A stretch of 33,857 nucleotides of DNA from Blastocatellia bacterium. GTDB lineage: Bacteria > Acidobacteriota > Blastocatellia > UBA7656. The stretch lies in assembly GCA_023265195.1 (NCBI GenBank), contig JAHFUG010000006.1, positions 11,867 through 45,723 of the forward strand, given 5' to 3'. This document shows, one piece after another, positions 3,615 to 12,512 of the stretch. Made by a program: the position numbers and the translations under genes. The notes below the pieces were generated by a model. It saw only the letters and a program-made list of their open reading frames with translations. It searched no databases and was not told the DNA's origin. Within the stretch, counting starts at the first letter, position 1; every line of letters starts with the position of its first letter.

Positions 3615-4820
3615 ATGTCGAATAAGACGTCGAAGAGATCGTTTGTGGAGTCTCGTCACGTGGCGAGCATGGAAGTGTCTTCCACTCTGCTCGTCTTGAT
3701 GGAAGCCGAGCGGCTTCGAGCCGCCGGGGCCGATCTGGTGGATCTCGGAGCCGGGGAACCGGATTTTCCCACGCCGCCCAACGTCAAGCTGGCGGGAGAG
3801 AGAGCCATCGAAGAGAACTTCACGCGCTACACGGCTACCGGAGGCACGGCGCAGCTCAAGCGGGCGATTATCGAGATGATGGAGCGCGGCTTCGGAACCG
3901 GCTACAAGCCATCGGAGTTGTTGGTGACGGCCGGGGGAAAGCAGGCGCTATTCAATGCGATGGCGGCGCTCCTGAATCCGGGCGATGAAGTGTTGATACC
4001 GGCGCCCTACTGGGTGACCTTCCCCGAGATAGCGAAGTTCTTCCGCGCGGTTCCGATCTTTATCGACACCGAACAGGAAAGTTTCCTGCTCAGCGCCGAA
4101 ATGGTGCGCTCATCCATAACGCCTCGCACAAAGCTGTTAATTCTAAACTCGCCGAACAATCCTTCGGGGAGAATAATCCCGCCAACCGAGTTCCGCCGAA
4201 TCGTAGAGATCGCCGCCGAAAACGAAGTGATGGTGATCAGCGACGAGTGTTACCTGCAATTCGCCTATCCACCGGCGCGCCCGTTCACCGCGGGTCAATT
4301 GCCGCCCGAACTCCGCGCAAACGTCATGGTCTGTGGCTCGTTCTCGAAGAGCTATGCGATGACCGGCTGGCGGATCGGCTTTGCGCTCGGGCGCGAAGAT
4401 TGGATTCAAGCGATGTTGAAGGTGCAGAGCCACTCGACGTCGAACGCGGCTTCGATTTCGCAGCGAGCCGCTGAAGAAGCGGCAAAGGGCCAGCAGGAAT
4501 CGCTCAAATACATGTTGGAGGAATACAGAAAGCGGCGGGATTGGCTCATACCTGCGCTCAATCGAATTCCAGGAATTGAATGCCAGACGCCGGAGGGAGC
4601 GTTTTACGCCTTTCCAAACGTTAAACGGCTGCTCAACGCCGGCGTGAGCGACTCGGCCGCCTTCGCGAAGCTATTGCTTGATCGGGCGCTTGTAGTGGTG
4701 ACGGCGGGTTCCGCATTTGGAGCCGAAGGTTATATACGGATGTCGTACGCGAATTCGCTTGACGCCATTCAACGCGGGGTCAGCCGAATCGCTGAAGCTG
4801 TCGAAAAAATGAATTTGTAG
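3615..4820 (+). CDS. Class I PLP-dependent aminotransferase (aspartate type)
   Basis: A 401-residue fold-type I aminotransferase of the aspartate aminotransferase 1b/prephenate aminotransferase group, transferring an amino group from aspartate (or a related amino acid) to 2-oxoglutarate. Visible landmarks are the substrate loop RYTATGGTAQLKRAI, the NNPSG motif near residue 181 (cofactor-binding Asn), D210 in VISDEC (pyridine nitrogen), the Schiff-base K245 in GSFSKSYAMTGWRIGF, and the substrate-carboxylate arginine in YIRMSYANS near the C-terminus. A GGGGGA Shine-Dalgarno precedes the ATG at 3615. Co-transcription with coaD is likely (20-bp gap). The exact amino-acid specificity is not readable from sequence alone. 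Confidence 0.92.
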   Translation: MSNKTSKRSFVESRHVASMEVSSTLLVLMEAERLRAAGADLVDLGAGEPDFPTPPNVKLAGERAIEENFTRYTATGGTAQLKRAIIEMMERGFGTGYKPSELLVTAGGKQALFNAMAALLNPGDEVLIPAPYWVTFPEIAKFFRAVPIFIDTEQESFLLSAEMVRSSITPRTKLLILNSPNNPSGRIIPPTEFRRIVEIAAENEVMVISDECYLQFAYPPARPFTAGQLPPELRANVMVCGSFSKSYAMTGWRIGFALGREDWIQAMLKVQSHSTSNAASISQRAAEEAAKGQQESLKYMLEEYRKRRDWLIPALNRIPGIECQTPEGAFYAFPNVKRLLNAGVSDSAAFAKLLLDRALVVVTAGSAFGAEGYIRMSYANSLDAIQRGVSRIAEAVEKMNL

Positions 4821-4965
4821 AGTTGCCTCGCTGAGAGCGGCCAGTCCCTCTTCCGGGGCGGGGAGAAGAGAAGCCGGAACGCCGAACGGATTCGGAAAAG
4901 ACTTTGCCCGCCTGCGCGCCACCCTCATAAGCGAGGGAAACTCGCGGCCCAAAGTGGAGATGCTT

Positions 4966-5178
4966 TTAGTACTTCGTGATGCTGATATCCTGCTGCCCTT
5001 CTTCTCGAAATCTCTTGAAGAAGAAGATGGCCCAAAACACCAGAGAGATCACAAAGAACACGCCGGCCAAAGCCAGTGAAGTTCTTTCCGTCCCAGGAGT
5101 AGCTTCAAGATACTTGACGAAGTAGAAGATCGTCGGCGCAAGCGTCGCAAGCCCTATCACCCAAAGTATGTGCTTCAT
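4966..5178 (-). CDS. Small two-helix membrane protein
   Basis: A 70-residue protein of unknown function. Two hydrophobic segments, HILWVIGLATLAPTIFYFV (residues 3-21) and SLALAGVFFVISLVFWAIFF, are separated by a short polar loop (LEATPGTERT). The C-terminus is charged (KRFREEGQQDISITKY). The start is chosen at the ATG at 5178 because GGAGGAG sits three bases before it; the longer reading upstream has no ribosome site. It is convergent with the aminotransferase gene. No family is recognised. Confidence 0.65.
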   Translation of the reverse strand: MKHILWVIGLATLAPTIFYFVKYLEATPGTERTSLALAGVFFVISLVFWAIFFFKRFREEGQQDISITKY

Positions 5179-5286: not shown

Positions 5287-5718
5287 AGTAGTGTCCTAAT
5301 TCCGTGTTGCTCGCTCTAGAGAAAAATCTCGAAACCCGAGAATACCCCCAACGCAGTTGGGGATACGTTCATTCGCTCGCTACAGACGCGCACCGCGGCT
5401 TTTTTCTTGAATACCCCCAACCCCGTTGGGGGATGGTTCATATGCAGCCTATCCAACGCGCGAGCATTCGTGGGCACGCTAACAAGGGCTCGGATCGCCT
5501 TGGAGATTCGTTGATGGCCCAGCGCCGCTAGCAGGCTGGTATTGAACGATCCCCCAACTGCGTTGGGGGTATTCCGGAGATCAACGGGGCGACGCGTGAG
5601 TAGGCCGGATTTGAAAAAGTCCCCCAACTGCGTTGGGGGTATTCCGGTCGTTCTTTGGTGGGAGCCTCCCGCCTCAGTCATAGTTATCCAATCAGCAACA
5701 CAGTATTAGGACACTACC
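5287..5718. mobile_element. MITE-like non-autonomous element, 432 bp
   Basis: The ends are terminal inverted repeats of 25 bases matching at 22 positions: AGTAGTGTCCTAAT at the left and the complement of GGTAGTGTCCTAAT at the right, both continuing into GTGTTGCT. The octamer GAGTGCTT occurs immediately outside both ends (5279-5286 and 5719-5726), as expected for an 8-bp target-site duplication. There is no transposase gene inside. Short open frames within it are only translations of the internal repeats. Eight-base duplications occur in IS1595-like and several other DDE families; the parent family is not determined. Confidence 0.85.
5340..5645. repeat. Four CCCCAAC-nnn-GTTGGGG hairpins inside the MITE
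   Basis: Four short palindromes have centres near 5354, 5423, 5560 and 5630, giving spacings of 69, 137 and 70 bases, as if one unit were missing in the middle. The first two units carry a GAATAC flank on the left. The last two carry the complementary GTATTC flank on the right, so the array is arranged symmetrically about the element centre. Loops are GCA, CCC, TGC and TGC. Confidence 0.85.
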
Positions 5719-5864
5719 GAGTGCTTGATCGCACCCTTAAATATAGTGGTCTTGAACGGAGCAATCCCCCAACCTCGTAAGCGGAGACAGGCCCACCTAA
5801 CGGAGGGCTGAGTTTGGCCAATTCTCGGAAAGAGCAAAATCAAATTTCATGTTCAATCTCAAAA

Positions 5865-5972
5865 AATCACGGGACGGGAAGAGGGATTTATCCCCGCTCT
5901 TCTTCTTGCTGCAAGTGTGAATGGAACCCTGAACGAGGAGCGGGGATAAGTCCCTCTTCCCGACCTGTGATT
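5865..5972. repeat. Palindromic repeat, family copy 2
   Basis: Imperfect inverted repeat with the same arm as 2761-2862: AATCAC, GGGAAGAGGGATTTATCCCC, then GCTC on the left. The near-complement on the right (GAGGAGCGGGGATAAGTCCC, then TCTTCCCGACCTGTGATT) closes it, with a loop of about 30 bases. The right flank to about 6050 is distantly similar to the flank of copy 1 (GGAACCAAAACGGCC versus GCAACCCCAAATGGCC). It lies downstream of the GT9 gene. Confidence 0.85.
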
Positions 5973-6090
5973 CTTTGATGTTTGGCGGTCTCCTTCATCT
6001 GGCCGCCTCATAAAGAGTGGAACCAAAACGGCCAGACTCCAGGGCCGTACCTTGATTTCATCCGGAAGCGTGAGTTTCTTTCTCGGTCCT

Positions 6091-7080
6091 TCAGAGGCTG
6101 AACAGCGTCGCGGTGCGGCTTTGCCGAAGAAGTTCCGCCGCGGCGTCGCAAAGCCGGTCGACGGCATTGGCGCTGGAACCGGCGATTATTCTGTGAATGC
6201 CTGAGTCTCGTGGCCCATTAGTGTTGGAGAGCTCGATCGCCGGCGTCCCCATTGAAGCCGCCGCGCGCGCCAGACCCGGGTCGTCCGTCACAAGCAGGCT
6301 AGCTCGCGCCAACACCGCGACAATCTGCGCCGCGCGCGGCGTCTTCAGGCTTATCGAGCCGCCGGGAAGAATTTCGCTTACACGCGAAGTGAAGCTCTTG
6401 TCGTAGGGAGCATCGATTGCGACCACGCGGACGCCATAATTACTCGAGAGCCTATGAGCCGTTTCGCCGAAGCGCTGAATCGGCCACGCCCCCGGCTTGC
6501 GCGCCTCGGCGGAGAACAACGCCAGAAGCGGAGCGCTATCGCGCGAACCGCGTTCAAGCAGCTTCTCGAATTTGTCACTCTCCTCGCGCAAGGGCCTCAG
6601 CATCGGTTGATCGAAATCGCATCTGATTCCGAGCTGGCCCAACATCTGTTTATAGCGAGAACCGGAGGAAGGAACGCCGCTTGGCAAGCGTCCGGCCAGC
6701 CGCTCCAGCAAGTCGAGCGGGTGGGAGGGAGTGATCGTTCGCGGCCAGGCGCCCAGCCAGCGAGCGATCCGAGTCTCGGACCGTGGCGAAAAATCGAGCA
6801 CCAGGTCGAATCTCATTCGCTTCGCGGTTCGGATCAATCGTATGAACCGCTTGAGAGCGCGCGTTGAAGTGTGAGTCGATGAGTCGATCAGGCCAAGATC
6901 GACCAGATCATTGGCGAGCGATTCAGCGCCAATCAATTCGCATATTCCCGTCGACGACGCGGCGGCGATGAAGCTGTTTTCATACCTCGACCTGACGGCT
7001 CGCATTGCCGGTAAGAGGGCGAGCGAGGTCCCGAAATCCGCGGAGTCTATGATGAGAATGGCGCGCGGCTCGCTAGGCAT
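6091..7080 (-). CDS. Glycosyltransferase family 9 (heptosyltransferase-like)
   Basis: A 329-residue protein resembling ADP-heptose:LPS heptosyltransferases (GT-B fold), which add heptose or related sugars to lipopolysaccharide core or other glycans at the inner face of the membrane. It has the N-terminal ILIIDSADFGTSLALLPAMR (family pattern R/D-x-x-G-D-x-L-x-x-P-x-L-R) and the C-terminal sugar-nucleotide region LVTDDPGLARAAASMGTPAI, where the family has T/SNDSGP-x-H-x-A-A-x-x-x-P. The usual SGPMH is changed to DPGLA, so catalysis may be altered. The ATG at 7080 gives the canonical N-terminus. It lacks a Shine-Dalgarno, but a TATAAT box lies seven bases upstream, suggesting a leaderless message. 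A 53-bp piece is duplicated at 12367-12419. Confidence 0.75.
   Translation of the reverse strand: MPSEPRAILIIDSADFGTSLALLPAMRAVRSRYENSFIAAASSTGICELIGAESLANDLVDLGLIDSSTHTSTRALKRFIRLIRTAKRMRFDLVLDFSPRSETRIARWLGAWPRTITPSHPLDLLERLAGRLPSGVPSSGSRYKQMLGQLGIRCDFDQPMLRPLREESDKFEKLLERGSRDSAPLLALFSAEARKPGAWPIQRFGETAHRLSSNYGVRVVAIDAPYDKSFTSRVSEILPGGSISLKTPRAAQIVAVLARASLLVTDDPGLARAAASMGTPAIELSNTNGPRDSGIHRIIAGSSANAVDRLCDAAAELLRQSRTATLFSL
6962..7014. repeat. 53-bp repeat, source copy inside the GT9 gene
   Basis: This stretch encodes the GT9 residues LPAMRAVRSRYENSFIAA. It recurs in the same orientation at 12367-12419 with a single mismatch (CCTCGACC here, CCTTGACC there). Confidence 0.9.
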
Positions 7081-7087
7081 GAACCGG

Positions 7088-7119
7088 ATTATACAGCAGA
7101 GCGCGCGCCGCCATGACAA
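7088..7119 (-). promoter_or_regulatory. Candidate promoter of the GT9 gene
   Basis: On the minus strand, a perfect TATAAT (7093-7088) ends seven bases before the GT9 ATG. TTGTCA (7119-7114) lies upstream with a long spacer of 20 bases. Transcription would begin at or next to the start codon, which fits the missing Shine-Dalgarno. Confidence 0.4.
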
Positions 7120-7768
7120 GTCCAGCTTCTTGTCTTGATGTCGATCACATTGACGGTCGGTCTGCAAGCCCCTCACCCCGCCGTCGGGGAGAAGGGGAAA
7201 AGGGAGGGGAGGCGTCTCCGTTGTAGGCCGCGCGTTAATAGATAACCACAGTCCCGTGTGGCGTATTTTGGACTTCCACACAGTCTCAAGACAGCCGATC
7301 CGTGGCCGCAAAGGCAGTCTTGGAGATCTCCCAGCGCAGCAACGGGATCGCCGCGTCGTACAACCTTGGTTGCGGGAAGGCCCTCAAAACCCGCCCTCGG
7401 GACGAAGGGGAACAATCCAGGAGCCCAGCGAAAACGCCGATCCAACGCCGATAGAACCAACCCTGAGTTCCGCGGACTGTGTAACGCTGATCCTGCGCGG
7501 ATTCGCGATCCGAAGACAACGCTGATCCGCGGTTATTCCGGAGAACCGCCGCGCGGGGTCACTCGAGAGGGAATCACTAGGCGCACGCCGCGAGTGAGTT
7601 GTGCCCAATGCCTTATTCTTTGATATTATACCGCCGCGTTCGATCATCATTTACGTGGCATTCTCTGGTGGTGCGGGGAGACTTTGGACTTGCGTGGTCG
7701 AGGTGCGGCGCGCTGTCCTGACTTGGGATCATCAGTCAAGCGACGTGGCTCTTGCTGAATATAGATAT
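7120..7768. other. Intergenic region without recognised gene
   Basis: No convincing coding sequence is seen. It holds an imperfect GC-rich hairpin around 7169-7197 (CCCCTCACCCCG against CGGGGAGAAGGGG) and one copy of a 62-bp dispersed repeat at 7481-7542. An open frame starting with GTG at 7601 runs through the tRNA-like sequence into the gwsG remnant, but its first part resembles nothing and is read as a chance fusion. Confidence 0.5.
7481..7542. repeat. Dispersed 62-bp repeat, copy A
   Basis: Aligns with 17736-17796 at 49 of 61 positions with a one-base gap, beginning with the identical GTAACGCTGATCC and ending in CGGCGGTTA/CGCGGTTA. Both copies are intergenic. Confidence 0.55.
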
Positions 7769-7866
7769 GAAGGCGAATGGGGTCTGGTGATCTCCGCGGG
7801 CTTCAAACCCGTTGCGGGTCCCCGACAGGCGGGCTGGGTGGGTTCGATTCCCACAAGCCGCCGCCA
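7769..7866 (+). tRNA. tRNA-Sec-like gene with damaged 5' acceptor strand
   Basis: The features of a bacterial selenocysteine tRNA are visible. A six-pair D stem GGGGTC/GATCTC closes a four-base loop (7779-7794). The anticodon stem GCGGG/CCCGT has loop CTTCAAA, anticodon TCA (7803-7805). There is a long variable arm with CCCG/CGGG, a T arm GTGGG-TTCGATT-CCCAC, an eight-base 3' acceptor strand AAGCCGCC, a G discriminator and an encoded CCA (7864-7866). The 5' acceptor strand should read about GGCGGCTT, but the sequence there is GAAGGCGA, pairing at only four of eight positions (five with a shifted register). It is probably a pseudo-tRNA or a recombination half-site. No selA or selB is visible nearby. 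Confidence 0.65.
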
Positions 7867-8395
7867 GCACCTGCGAAGCGAAACGATTTTTCAGGCAAGA
7901 ATCACCAAGTCGATTGGTAATGCGCTTGTATGTGATTTTGACGGTCGTTCCTTTGCAACTTATACGTCGTTGATCCAGCGGGAGGCGTTGGATAGGAGCG
8001 GCCGCGAACGCGTTTTCCCAACTCTCATCCAGGAATACTTGGAGAAAGAATACGAGATACGCGCCGTCTATCTGGATGGCCGGTTTTACACCATGGCCAT
8101 TTTCTCTCAAAGCGACGAGCAGACCAGTGTTGATTTTCGGCGCTACCTGTTCACTAGGCCGAATAGAACCGTCCCTTATGAGCTTCCCGATGCTCTCTCT
8201 TCGAAGCTGTCAACCCTAATGCAAAAGTTAGGATTGGAAACCGGGTCGCTTGATCTGGTCAAAACAGTAGATGGCCGCTTCGTGTTCCTCGAGGTAAATC
8301 CCGTGGGCCAGTTTGGCATGGTGTCGTACCCGTGCAACTACTTTCTCGAGCGCGAGGTAGCGTCGGCCTTGGTGAGGCGATTGAATGATAGCTAA
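7867..8395 (+). pseudogene. gwsG: gwsG: ATP-grasp peptide maturase, 5'-truncated
   Basis: The frame encodes about the last 170 residues of a grasp-with-spasm ATP-grasp maturase (family length about 310-330). Recognisable blocks are ITKSIGNALV, YTSLIQREALD, FPTLIQEYLEKEYEIRAVYL, FYTMAIFSQSDEQTSVDFRR, PNRTVPYELP, ETGSLDLVKTVDGRFVFLEV and NPVGQFGMVSYPCNYFLERE. The last segments include the Mg/ATP-binding E-x-N of ATP-grasp enzymes. The N-terminal pre-ATP-grasp half is absent, and family similarity begins right after the tRNA-like CCA. No good start codon or ribosome site precedes it. In intact systems GwsG would ligate side chains of a precursor peptide using ATP. Its stop overlaps the next ORF by 11 bases. 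Confidence 0.75.
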
Positions 8396-8582
8396 AGACA
8401 AGACTTTTCTCGATTACATCAGGCCCGAATTGCTTCACCTTCTTCCTGTTCATCTCTGGCTTGTCGAGGAGATGCCAATGTCAGAGACGGCGACTAGGGC
8501 TGCGGAAAGCGATACCTACCATACGGAAGGGTATGTGTGCGGGAGATTCTACAAGCCAATCTCACGCTGCATGCCGGAATGA
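8385..8582 (+). CDS. 65-residue small protein between the gws maturases
   Basis: Unknown function. The ATG at 8385 overlaps the end of gwsG (ATGATAGCTAA) and follows GGTGAGG, so translation is probably coupled. The N-terminal half is a hydrophobic, amphipathic stretch (FLDYIRPELLHLLPVHLWLV). The middle is polar (EMPMSETATRAAESDT). The end carries two cysteines (GYVCGRFYKPISRCMPE). The position between gwsG and gwsS suggests a pathway role, either as substrate peptide or accessory protein. It lacks the double-glycine leader of the Bacteroidetes gws precursors, so precursor status is unproven. Confidence 0.55.
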   Translation: MIAKDKTFLDYIRPELLHLLPVHLWLVEEMPMSETATRAAESDTYHTEGYVCGRFYKPISRCMPE

Positions 8583-8597
8583 AATTAGGGAGCATCG

Positions 8598-9662
8598 GTG
8601 TTGAGCGACTCGATTTTTAGATTGTTCGCGAATTGCCTTCCTGTAAAGGGAGCCATAAGAAGCACAATCTGCGATTTACAGTTAGGTAGATTCGACTTTA
8701 TCCCCAACGGGCTCTACCATATTCTCACGGAAATGAAGGGTCTTACAATCGTTGAGATCAAAGCCTCGTTTCATGACAACCAACATAAGATAATCGACGA
8801 TTACTTCGCGTTTCTCGAGCACGCGAGGTATGGGTTTTTCTGTTCCGAACCGAATCTGTTCCCGGACCTGGACCTGACGTGGGATGCGCCAGGGCAGATC
8901 ACGAACGCTATTATTGACATAAACGAGGAGTCTAATCACCCGTTTGGAAGTATTTTCACCCAGCTCGACTGTTTAGGCTGCAAGGCTCTCCAGATTCGCA
9001 TATTCACCCCTATGTCTCCGGAAGAGCTACGGAGAATTCTCGACCTCACACGGAGGGGTGGGCTAAGACATATCGATCTCCTGTTAGCATACTCCGGCGA
9101 ATTCACCGGTGACCTTCTCGAAGGCATCTGCTCAGAACATCAGCGAGTGTCGAAAATCGTGGTTCACTCCGCCCCGGACGAGAGAGTGATTAAGGTTGGA
9201 AACACGAACGTTCAGATCAGTTTCACGACTGCGCAATGCGATTCCCCTTCGTGTTGTGGAGAAACCTCGCCGAGGTACTTTGCGGTCAACATCGAACTTT
9301 TTACGGAAGCGCAGTCGTGGAACACGTGTTTGAACCGTAAGATTTCGATCTCAACGGACGGCCTCATCAAAAACTGTCCTTCAATGTCTGACTCGTTCGG
9401 ACATATCACCACGACTCCCTTGAATGCTGCCTTAACTGCGCCTATGTACAAACGCTTATGGAGCATTACGAAAGATCAGGTAAAGATTTGCCGGGATTGT
9501 GAGTTCAGGTATATCTGCACTGACTGCCGCGCGTATCGGGAGGACCCGAGTGATATTGCTTCCAAGCCGCTCAAGTGTGGGTACAATCCCTATACTGCGG
9601 AATGGAGCGAGCCGGCGGGAAAGGGACGCAGCAGCGTTTCCAACGGTGATACCAAATCGTGA
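8598..9662 (+). CDS. gwsS: gwsS: grasp-with-spasm SPASM-domain peptide maturase
   Basis: A 354-residue protein matching the SPASM partner of grasp-with-spasm RiPP systems. The C-terminus has the SPASM-type cysteine set: C244 (WNTCLNRKISISTDGLIKNC), C260 followed by PSMSDSFGHI, then C298, C301, C307, C310 (CRDCEFRYICTDC) and C327 (KPLKCGYNPYTAEW), likely ligating auxiliary Fe-S clusters. No CxxxCxxC radical-SAM motif is visible in the N-terminal half, which is also the pattern I associate with this family. It acts with the ATP-grasp maturase on a ribosomal precursor peptide. The start is GTG at 8598 with AGGGAG six bases upstream, 15 bases after the small ORF. Its stop overlaps the permease start (GTGA). 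Confidence 0.9.
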   Translation: MLSDSIFRLFANCLPVKGAIRSTICDLQLGRFDFIPNGLYHILTEMKGLTIVEIKASFHDNQHKIIDDYFAFLEHARYGFFCSEPNLFPDLDLTWDAPGQITNAIIDINEESNHPFGSIFTQLDCLGCKALQIRIFTPMSPEELRRILDLTRRGGLRHIDLLLAYSGEFTGDLLEGICSEHQRVSKIVVHSAPDERVIKVGNTNVQISFTTAQCDSPSCCGETSPRYFAVNIELFTEAQSWNTCLNRKISISTDGLIKNCPSMSDSFGHITTTPLNAALTAPMYKRLWSITKDQVKICRDCEFRYICTDCRAYREDPSDIASKPLKCGYNPYTAEWSEPAGKGRSSVSNGDTKS

Positions 9663-12109
9663 GAATCAGATTAGAAACGTCAGGCGGCGCGCGGAAGAAC
9701 GGCGGGCTGCAAGGGATGACTGCGGATTTCGCGTACGATGTCCGCCACGGATTTAGAAGGCTGTTGAAGAAACGACTCTTCAGCGCGGCGGTGGTGCTTA
9801 CACTGGGTATCAGTATTGGCGTCAACGTTGCCGTGTTTAGTCTGGCCAATAGACTGCTTGTAAGCGGCTTGCCCTATGCAGACAGCGCCCGCCTTGCGCT
9901 TGCCGGGGGATTGCCGTTGGTGACTTTCATCCGGTCACCGGCTTCTTTCAATGACTGGAAGTCCGACTCTTATCTGCTGGACGACGGCGCTCTCTACGCT
10001 GTAGGGGAGACAACTCTGTTGGCGGATCCCGAACCAATTGCATTACACGTAGCACATGTGACGTCCAATCTTTTCAAGATTCTTGGGACTGTTCCTACGG
10101 TCGGGCGTACGTTTTCGCCGGAAGAAGAAGACCCTAAGTCGGCCAAGGTGGCGATGGTTTCAGAGCGGCTTTGGCGGAACCAGTTTGGCGCCGATAAATC
10201 CATTTCTGGAAAGACCCTTAAACTGAACAACGAAGATCACACGATCATTGGGGTGGTTCCCGCTATTTACGGTTTTCCAGTGGGCGCCGACGTGTGGACT
10301 CCCACTGGCCATAATTTGCGCGCCTGGGCGAGGTCGCATGCCGTGGGTAGTACCGTGCTTGTGCGGATGAAGCCGATGGCTACCGTGGCTCAGGTTGACG
10401 CCCAGCAGCGCGGGTGGCTGCAAAACCACCAACTCCTGGACCAGCAGACGGATCACGCGGATGCTGAAGCTCTCGTTCAGCCGCTCGAATCGCAATTCAT
10501 AGGCGAGTTGAAGTGGCCGGTTCTGTTATTGATTGGCGCCGTCGCCCTTGTGCTTTTGATTGGCTGCGCCAATGTATCCAATCTAATTATCGTCGATTCG
10601 ATAATGCGTGATCATGAGTTTGCCGTTAGACGGGCGGTCGGGATGACCACAGGCCGTTTTTTTCGTCAACTGGTTGCAGAACAATTCTTGATTAGCATGT
10701 TGGGCGGCTTCACTGGTCTCGTTTTGGCTTATTGCAGTCTTCCTTACCTCAAAGAATATTTACCCGAGAAATGGCCGGAATTCGCACTGGTCTCAATCGA
10801 TGCTCGCGGGTTCGTATTCACTCTGGCCGTTTCCATGCTTGTAGGCGGTGTCGTAGGACTACTGCCCGGCTGTGCGGTTGCCAAGAGACTAGATACAGTC
10901 GCTCTGCAGATTGGAGGCCGAGGCAGCGAACCACCGTCTCGCAAACGATGGAGGGAGGCTTTAGTGTGCGCTGAAACCGGTCTCGCTATGGTTCTGTTGG
11001 TGCTTGCCGCGCTCTTTATTCAGACACTGCGCGATCTGATTGCGGTAGACTGCGGCTTCAGGCCAGGGAATGTACTGGTTGCGAGCGTAGCCCGGCGCAA
11101 TGCTAATGATCGAGAACTTGCCGGTTCTCAAGCTTTCTATGTCGAGGTGCTCGCGCGCCTTCGATCGCTTGAGGGAGTGCTCGCCGTGGGCGGAGTAGAC
11201 TATTTGCCTGCCCGCGATGAGATAGCCATTCTCAAGGACGTGCGGCAAATTCCGGCCGAGACCGATCCCTCTTCGTTACAGGTAAGTGCGAGATCAGTTG
11301 CACCAGGGTACTTTGAGGCGATGGGGATTCCGTTGGTCGCGGGAAGGGAGTTTAGCGAGCTAGACGACCGGTCTCACCAGCAGGTTGTGATTGTAGATCA
11401 GAAGCTCACCGATAAACTGTGGTCCGGACTCAACCCAATCGGGCGCAGAATCTCACTGGATTCCGATGTTACTGCCGTAGTGGTGGGCATCGTCGGGGCG
11501 GTTCGCGCACAGGGGCCCCAATCCGAACCATTGCTCGAAATGTACCGGCCGCTGACACAATCATCGCCGCCAGCCGTGTTCAATTTCGTTGTCCGGACTT
11601 CAGTTACCCCGACGGCTTTAGCCTCACAGGTACGATCGTTGATTCGTTCCAATGATCCGAACCAGCCGGTAGAGATCGCGACAATGGAGAGTTACTTAGC
11701 TCGCAAGCTGAAGCGCCCGCGAGGGATTGCCGGATTACTTGGTGTTCTATCAGGGCTCGGTCTCTTGTTGGCTGTCGTTGGCATTTCCGGGTTGGTGTCG
11801 TACTCCGTAACGACAAGGACACGGGAGTTTGGTATTCGATTAGCGCTTGGAGAGAGCCCTATGCGCCTTTTTCTCCGCGCTGTTTCTAGTGGCCTACGGC
11901 CGGTGTTGCCCGGGGTTGTATTGGGATGCCTACTTGCATCGGCAGCGGCCAAGCTCGTTCAATCGGAGTTGTTTGGGGTTAAGTCCACCCCGGCAATAAC
12001 ATTGAGCGTTACCGCGATATCGCTACTGTGCGCGAGCGCTCTCGCCGGTATCTTTGGCGGACGCCGCGCGGCTAGTTTGGACCCAATGACGGCGCTGCAC
12101 GAAGAGTAG
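9659..12109 (+). CDS. MacB/FtsX-type ABC permease (duplicated orphan permease)
   Basis: An 816-residue membrane protein built of two MacB_PCD-FtsX units. It has a first membrane helix near residues 40-60 (SAAVVLTLGISIGVNVAVFS), a periplasmic domain, and an FtsX core near 280-400 (WPVLLLIGAVALVLLIGCAN, then EFAVRRAVGMTTGRFFRQLV). A second unit follows, ending in GLLLAVVGISGLVSYSVTTR, EFGIRLALGESP and the terminal DPMTALHEE. This is the acidobacterial duplicated-orphan-permease (ADOP) layout, in which no ATPase gene is adjacent. The GTG at 9659 overlaps the gwsS stop by four bases, supporting coupling; an internal ATG at 9716 (MTADFAYDVRHG) matches the usual family N-terminus and is an alternative start. 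Export of the gws product is a contextual inference only. Confidence 0.85.
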   Translation: MRIRLETSGGARKNGGLQGMTADFAYDVRHGFRRLLKKRLFSAAVVLTLGISIGVNVAVFSLANRLLVSGLPYADSARLALAGGLPLVTFIRSPASFNDWKSDSYLLDDGALYAVGETTLLADPEPIALHVAHVTSNLFKILGTVPTVGRTFSPEEEDPKSAKVAMVSERLWRNQFGADKSISGKTLKLNNEDHTIIGVVPAIYGFPVGADVWTPTGHNLRAWARSHAVGSTVLVRMKPMATVAQVDAQQRGWLQNHQLLDQQTDHADAEALVQPLESQFIGELKWPVLLLIGAVALVLLIGCANVSNLIIVDSIMRDHEFAVRRAVGMTTGRFFRQLVAEQFLISMLGGFTGLVLAYCSLPYLKEYLPEKWPEFALVSIDARGFVFTLAVSMLVGGVVGLLPGCAVAKRLDTVALQIGGRGSEPPSRKRWREALVCAETGLAMVLLVLAALFIQTLRDLIAVDCGFRPGNVLVASVARRNANDRELAGSQAFYVEVLARLRSLEGVLAVGGVDYLPARDEIAILKDVRQIPAETDPSSLQVSARSVAPGYFEAMGIPLVAGREFSELDDRSHQQVVIVDQKLTDKLWSGLNPIGRRISLDSDVTAVVVGIVGAVRAQGPQSEPLLEMYRPLTQSSPPAVFNFVVRTSVTPTALASQVRSLIRSNDPNQPVEIATMESYLARKLKRPRGIAGLLGVLSGLGLLLAVVGISGLVSYSVTTRTREFGIRLALGESPMRLFLRAVSSGLRPVLPGVVLGCLLASAAAKLVQSELFGVKSTPAITLSVTAISLLCASALAGIFGGRRAASLDPMTALHEE

Positions 12110-12512
12110 ATTGGAATCGCCACAAAAACGCGCTGGTGAGAACATGCTCCTTCCAGGATAAAGCCAGGAAGAACTGCCTCGCGGCCGTTCATCCAGTACC
12201 TGCGCCCTGCGGCGGCCTAGATCCCCGAACGATCGGGTTGAATACTGGGATCGCTGGACGACCCCGTGATTTTGACTTGCCATTCATCCGCCAAGGAGGC
12301 GTAAAGAATATCTTCCCGTTTTGACCGTCTGGCGCGGAATGAATGTACGGGCGGCACTCCGTGGCCGCGGCGATGAAGCTGTTTTCATACCTTGACCTGA
12401 CGGCTCGCATTGCCGGTAATCTAGTTCGGTCCGCCGTCCATGTCTATGGCGCTCTGGCCCGAAGCGTGGCAAATTATGCAATCGCCCAATCATAAGATTG
12501 AAGGGAATCCAT
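12110..12512. other. Intergenic region holding a GT9 gene fragment
   Basis: No intact gene is seen. It contains a small hairpin after the permease gene (CCCGA-ACGA-TCGGG near 12223) and the displaced 53-bp GT9 fragment. The upstream region and ribosome site of the S33 hydrolase are at its right end. Confidence 0.5.
12367..12419. repeat. Displaced 53-bp copy of GT9 coding sequence
   Basis: Identical at 52 of 53 positions to 6962-7014, same orientation, about 5.4 kb away. Read on the minus strand it still encodes LPAMRAVRSRYENSFIAA, but the flanking sequence on both sides is unrelated to the GT9 gene, so it is an isolated fragment. Confidence 0.9.

Follow-up and report, generated by a model that had tools for sequence, protein, structure and literature searches.

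A grasp-with-spasm locus of a Blastocatellia bacterium, probably truncated at a tRNA-Sec gene

Described gws loci and their relatives

Peptide-maturation loci of the grasp-with-spasm (gws) type are described mainly from Bacteroidota (families TIGR04192 and TIGR04193; ATP-grasp branch 5, PMC8939145). According to published inference, GwsG of an intact locus would cross-link a GG-leader peptide by ester or amide bonds, GwsS would introduce another modification, and LPL would serve as an accessory protein. The LPL proteins are always encoded directly upstream of the SPASM gene, and the SPASM protein of these loci is treated as a radical SAM enzyme (PMC8939145). A search of a paper library for the exact term grasp-with-spasm found none.

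When genome contigs were scanned with the GwsS of the window, that is, the whole stretch of 33,857 nucleotides analysed here, 14 loci were obtained, 13 from Bacteroidota and one, L015, acidobacterial by title. Where the Bacteroidota contigs reach far enough, most loci carry gwsG at full length ahead of gwsS, frequently preceded by a small ORF that contains GG; the gwsG of L021 is divided between two frames, and some gws contigs are cut. Two plasmids of Elizabethkingia anophelis, NZ_CP071549.1 and NZ_CP016375.1, both carry an annotated gwsS, with gwsG upstream of it on the former. The Elizabethkingia system differs from that of the window in being plasmid-borne, in having an untruncated gwsG, and in its GwsS, which is about 34% identical to the window protein. 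The window resembles the Bacteroidota loci in having a GwsS over the family cut-off, the C-terminal half of GwsG and an LPL-type gene between them, all in the same order and on the same strand. It departs from them in its truncated gwsG, the lack of a precursor gene, a host outside Bacteroidota, and an ADOP permease gene downstream.

The L015 locus, on contig JAJKHS010000081.1 of a Thermoanaerobaculum MAG, has the ordinary gws arrangement, as follows. A GG-containing small ORF at 6376-6576 (...VAGGELDGG...) lies upstream of a complete gwsG, whose product scores 277 bits, over the TIGR04192 cut-off, and the gwsS frame at 7701-9008 carries a fused LPL-like segment at its N-terminus. L015 is the locus nearest to the window in both GwsS (50-51%) and GwsG (53-54%), but it has a full gwsG, the GG-containing ORF, the LPL fusion and no permease, whereas the window has half a gwsG, a separate LPL gene and the ADOP gene. 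About 1.7 kb upstream of its gwsG, L015 also has a Lant_dehydr_C frame (4296-5014).

The gene block of the window

The window comes from contig C29 of a draft genome of 7.55 Mb in 686 contigs, 94% complete and with 3.83% contamination. The features of the block and its edges are the following.

6959-7014, + strand: 56 bp to the left of the block, within a resident GT9 (heptosyltransferase-like) gene, matching 12364-12419
7771-7866, + strand: tRNA-Sec gene (Rfam RF01852 at 7772-7862, 56.8 bits)
7853-8395, + strand: gwsG fragment encoding the C-terminal half of the ATP-grasp maturase (TIGR04192 positions 157-318, 218.3 bits)
8385-8582, + strand: LPL-type accessory protein gene, 65 aa, assigned by homology to the L015 fusion and by position in relatives
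8598-9662, + strand: gwsS, SPASM-domain peptide maturase, 354 aa (TIGR04193, 340.7 bits)
9716-12109, + strand: ADOP-family duplicated permease, 797 aa from ATG 9716 or 816 aa from GTG 9659 (TIGR03434, 674.2 bits)
12293-12368, no strand assigned: interspersed repeat copy on the right border of the block, with dozens of genome copies, often in inverted pairs
12364-12419, + strand: 56-bp copy (96%) of the internal GT9 gene piece, at the right edge of the block

An earlier note on this DNA had read 7867-12109 as a gws locus of a putative acidobacterium, and an ORF check finds every frame that it named. The ATP-grasp C-terminus ends at 8395 as described, the small ORF of 65 codons overlaps it by 11 bp, and 15 bases separate the small ORF from gwsS. 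The family assignment is right: GwsS lies over the TIGR04193 cut-off of 175 bits, and for the GwsG half TIGR04192 is the best-matching family, although its score, from the C-terminal half only, stays below the cut-off of 230. An acidobacterial host is plausible, given 18 ADOP permeases in the genome and a nearest gwsS from an acidobacterial MAG. Position 7867, on the other hand, is not the start of a gene; it is the base that follows the CCA of the tRNA-Sec.

The 65-aa ORF is homologous to the N-terminal part of the L015 fusion (E 1.7e-11) and also matches a second locus, L024 (E 8e-5). Small frames occupy the gwsG-gwsS slot of other gws loci, most with a KPIS-like C-terminus, and plasmid NZ_CP071549.1 has an unannotated LPL-like frame there; these likenesses are short and divergent, and position and motif carry them more than statistics do. 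By homology and position, the ORF is an LPL-type gws accessory gene, and it fits the published LPL family (PMC8939145). We also considered it as the precursor, a role rejected for its LPL type and lack of a GG motif.

GwsS carries the full SPASM cysteine set that had been claimed for it, with CX10GX4C, CX2CX5CX2C and C327 all present (C244, C260, C298, C301, C307, C310 and C327) and a TIGR04085 score of 30.5 bits (cut-off 27). The two SPASM patterns tested are present in 12 of 13 GwsS proteins, L026 being the exception, and the radical-SAM CX3CX2C [4Fe-4S] motif is absent from all 13 (the window protein and 12 relatives). A sequence-profile search for relatives in the PDB found none. The AlphaFold2 model (mean pLDDT 65) shows a strand-helix unit at the N-terminus along with an incomplete beta-alpha barrel; residues 1-80 are mostly above 80, and the SPASM part is below 50. 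Foldseek places CteB first and the heterocyclase 4v1u and SuiB next; lasso-peptide B1 proteins (RREs) match at a TMt of about 0.6-0.7, and whole-chain TM-scores are about 0.2. The model thus resembles the radical SAM peptide maturases CteB and SuiB (PDB 5wgg, 5why, 5v1q) in what appear to be an RRE-like N-terminus and a C-terminal SPASM part, but GwsS lacks CX3CX2C, and the C-terminus of the model is of low confidence. GwsS may accordingly be composed of an RRE, a degenerate barrel and a SPASM domain, as the modelled N-terminus suggests. Since the motif is missing from a protein with an RRE-rSAM-SPASM-like model, the question arises of whether GwsS is an enzyme or a substrate-binding partner of GwsG.

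The two-unit MacB/FtsX permease described earlier is also there, as an 816-codon frame to 12109 with two PF12704 (MacB_PCD) and two PF02687 (FtsX) stretches, matching TIGR03434 over its full length (cut-off 622.3 bits). The 4-bp GTGA overlap with gwsS exists in the letters, but the GTG start at 9659 that it requires is questionable, because the match to the ADOP profile sets in at residue 25 of the GTG frame. This point lies 5 residues past the ATG at 9716, and a start at this ATG would replace the overlap with a 53-bp gap. In this genome, 18 ADOPs score over the TIGR03434 cut-off. Compared with 16 of the others, the window ADOP shows 26-33% identity, and its GC3 of 58.2% is the lowest of the 17 (others 60.8-73.0%). 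No link of the family to gws was found: the ORFs of the 14 related loci, read to at most 8 kb either side of gwsS and in some cases much less, include no ADOP homologue, and ADOP as a conserved gws exporter is rejected on this ground. Transport-type genes of other kinds lie near some gws loci, for example a C39-peptidase ABC transporter (L025) and an outer membrane efflux protein (L019).

The tRNA-Sec junction and the borders of the block

The 3′ end of the tRNA-Sec runs straight into gwsG after the CCA. ARAGORN makes no call at 7771-7866; the sequence is 80-90% identical to tRNA-Sec of relatives, and it is the only clear copy in the genome, the next best match scoring 47.1 bits, at the cut-off. 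A DNA search of the genome found neither a second tRNA-Sec copy nor a second tRNA end, and selB is present. The acceptor strands are GGAGGCG/CGCCTCC in relatives and GAAGGCG/AGCCGCC here, giving a mismatched stem. Minimum-energy RNA folds say little about this copy, as the tRNA-Sec of relatives gave no cloverleaves either.

Read in the gwsG frame, the tRNA end encodes TSRR, the same residues as L015 GwsG has at that position, with the codons ACA AGC CGC CGC in the window and ACC AGT CGG CGC in L015. It is tempting to propose that recombination took place at this short similarity, so that the 3′ acceptor strand of the tRNA-Sec may now be gwsG sequence. The open gwsG frame begins at 7601 but passes through the tRNA. 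Its product aligns with residues 160-338 of L015 GwsG (53% identity), and the N-terminal half, ~150 residues, is gone; no match to it was found elsewhere in the genome, where an MvdC/MvdD-type pair on contig C399 provides the clearest ATP-grasp relatives of full length. Without this half, the graspetide step should be dead. The tRNA-Sec occupies the place upstream of gwsG where a GG-type precursor gene would be expected, and none was found there. Nor did any ORF on the contig show convincing similarity to five gws precursor candidates, which is a weak test because gws precursors are very diverse (PMC8939145).

The gwsG, LPL, gwsS and ADOP genes have a GC3 of 58-61%, against 69-71% for the flanking genes. 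To the left, the aminotransferase and GT9 genes match contig C80 of a genome of the same genus, G160, and to the right, the hydrolase and amidohydrolase genes match its contig C100, so the block sits between flanks that look resident. The low GC3 of the gws and ADOP genes between such flanks suggests an acquired block. Gene order around the block differs from that in G160, and therefore no empty site is demonstrated. Marks of a tRNA-integrated genomic island are an integrase gene and direct-repeat att sites. The block has a junction at the tRNA 3′ end and a direct repeat of 56 bp on either side, but no second copy of the tRNA end; the two repeat copies differ by two mismatches. Further interspersed repeats, with several to dozens of genome copies, are found at 5287-5718 and 5802-6045.

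Origin and possible activity of the block

We consider it probable that this is a horizontally transferred gws RiPP locus that lost its 5′ part by recombination into the tRNA-Sec gene. The presence of only half of GwsG, the tRNA-Sec junction, the complete loci of L015 and Bacteroidota, the GC3 values, the resident flanks, the right-edge repeats and the rarity of GwsS all favour this reading; a GwsS over the cut-off occurs in one of 162 genomes of the class and in one of 396 sampled from the phylum, with no second. In the proposed course of events, a gws locus would have entered the genome by horizontal transfer, probably together with the ADOP gene, and recombination into the tRNA-Sec gene would have removed the precursor gene and the N-terminal half of gwsG. 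Base composition is the ground for thinking that ADOP probably came in with the gws genes, and it speaks to arrival, not to shared function. The LPL and gwsS genes, still open and conserved, may be recent leftovers or may act alone. Against truncation we count the state of the proteins: invariant positions are changed at 2 of 27 in the GwsG fragment and 3 of 49 in GwsS, compared with 0-4 and 0-3 in other loci. There is no sign of long neutral decay, so the locus was either truncated recently or is in some part still being maintained. The gwsS tree resolved neither the place of the window sequence nor the donor and direction of transfer.

A misjoin of contigs at the tRNA-Sec, perhaps also at the 56-bp repeat, is possible and likewise counts against truncation; the real locus would then be complete or belong to another organism. 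The fragmented draft with its contamination, the breakpoint within a conserved tRNA and the deviating composition of the block would all fit such an artefact. Because both flanks match genes of G160, however, a foreign block would need two misjoins, one per side; moreover, the two mismatches in the repeat are unlike k-mer collapse, and the assembly has no other clear tRNA-Sec. On balance, an artefact appears unlikely. Quite unlikely, in our judgement, is a working minimal variant in which a precursor encoded elsewhere is modified by LPL and GwsS, alone or together with the GwsG half, and ADOP exports or senses the product. Co-directional open frames with short gaps, the common composition of LPL, gwsS and ADOP, and the retained SPASM cysteines speak for it, but the ATP-grasp enzyme is only half present, the contig offers no precursor-like ORF by the similarity search above, and ADOP is missing from the related loci. 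ADOPs, besides being abundant in this genome, are orphan permeases without an ATPase of their own. A more specific version, which we regard as very improbable, is that of a pared-down working system in which LPL and an RRE-SPASM GwsS would modify a peptide in trans with no ATP-grasp step and the co-acquired ADOP would export it, while gwsG sequence would have taken the place of the acceptor strand in the only tRNA-Sec of a genome that has selB.

The earlier note had suggested a different layout, without a GG leader and with the permease as possible exporter, and had named a repeated gwsG-small ORF-gwsS-permease order as support. We weighed it as a layout particular to Acidobacteriota. The arrangement is as seen in this one genome, and the small ORF does have counterparts in other gws loci. 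The permease, however, does not recur in the related loci, L015 has a GG-containing small ORF upstream, a full gwsG and no permease, and no second gwsS passes the cut-off among the 396 phylum genomes. A new layout is thus unsupported and, in our estimation, barely credible, the small ORF not being new and no other examined gws locus having an ADOP. Under the truncation that we favour, a cut at the tRNA-Sec accounts for the loss of the precursor and of half of gwsG. A missing precursor can thus reflect deletion and not a new layout, and the locus indicates that gws systems also occur outside Bacteroidota, rarely and probably by transfer.

Other peptide-maturase loci are found in the same genome. 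On contig C399, a second graspetide locus at 5622-8386 encodes an MvdD (479 bits, over the cut-off), an MvdC-like maturase (416 bits, just under the cut-off of 425) and two microviridin-like precursor frames with a PFFARYLE motif and TLKFPSD/TLKYPSD cores. Contig C591 has, at 8386-9963, a gene for a radical SAM/SPASM peptide maturase-like protein, whose best match is CcpM at 201.7 bits, far below the cut-off of 500.
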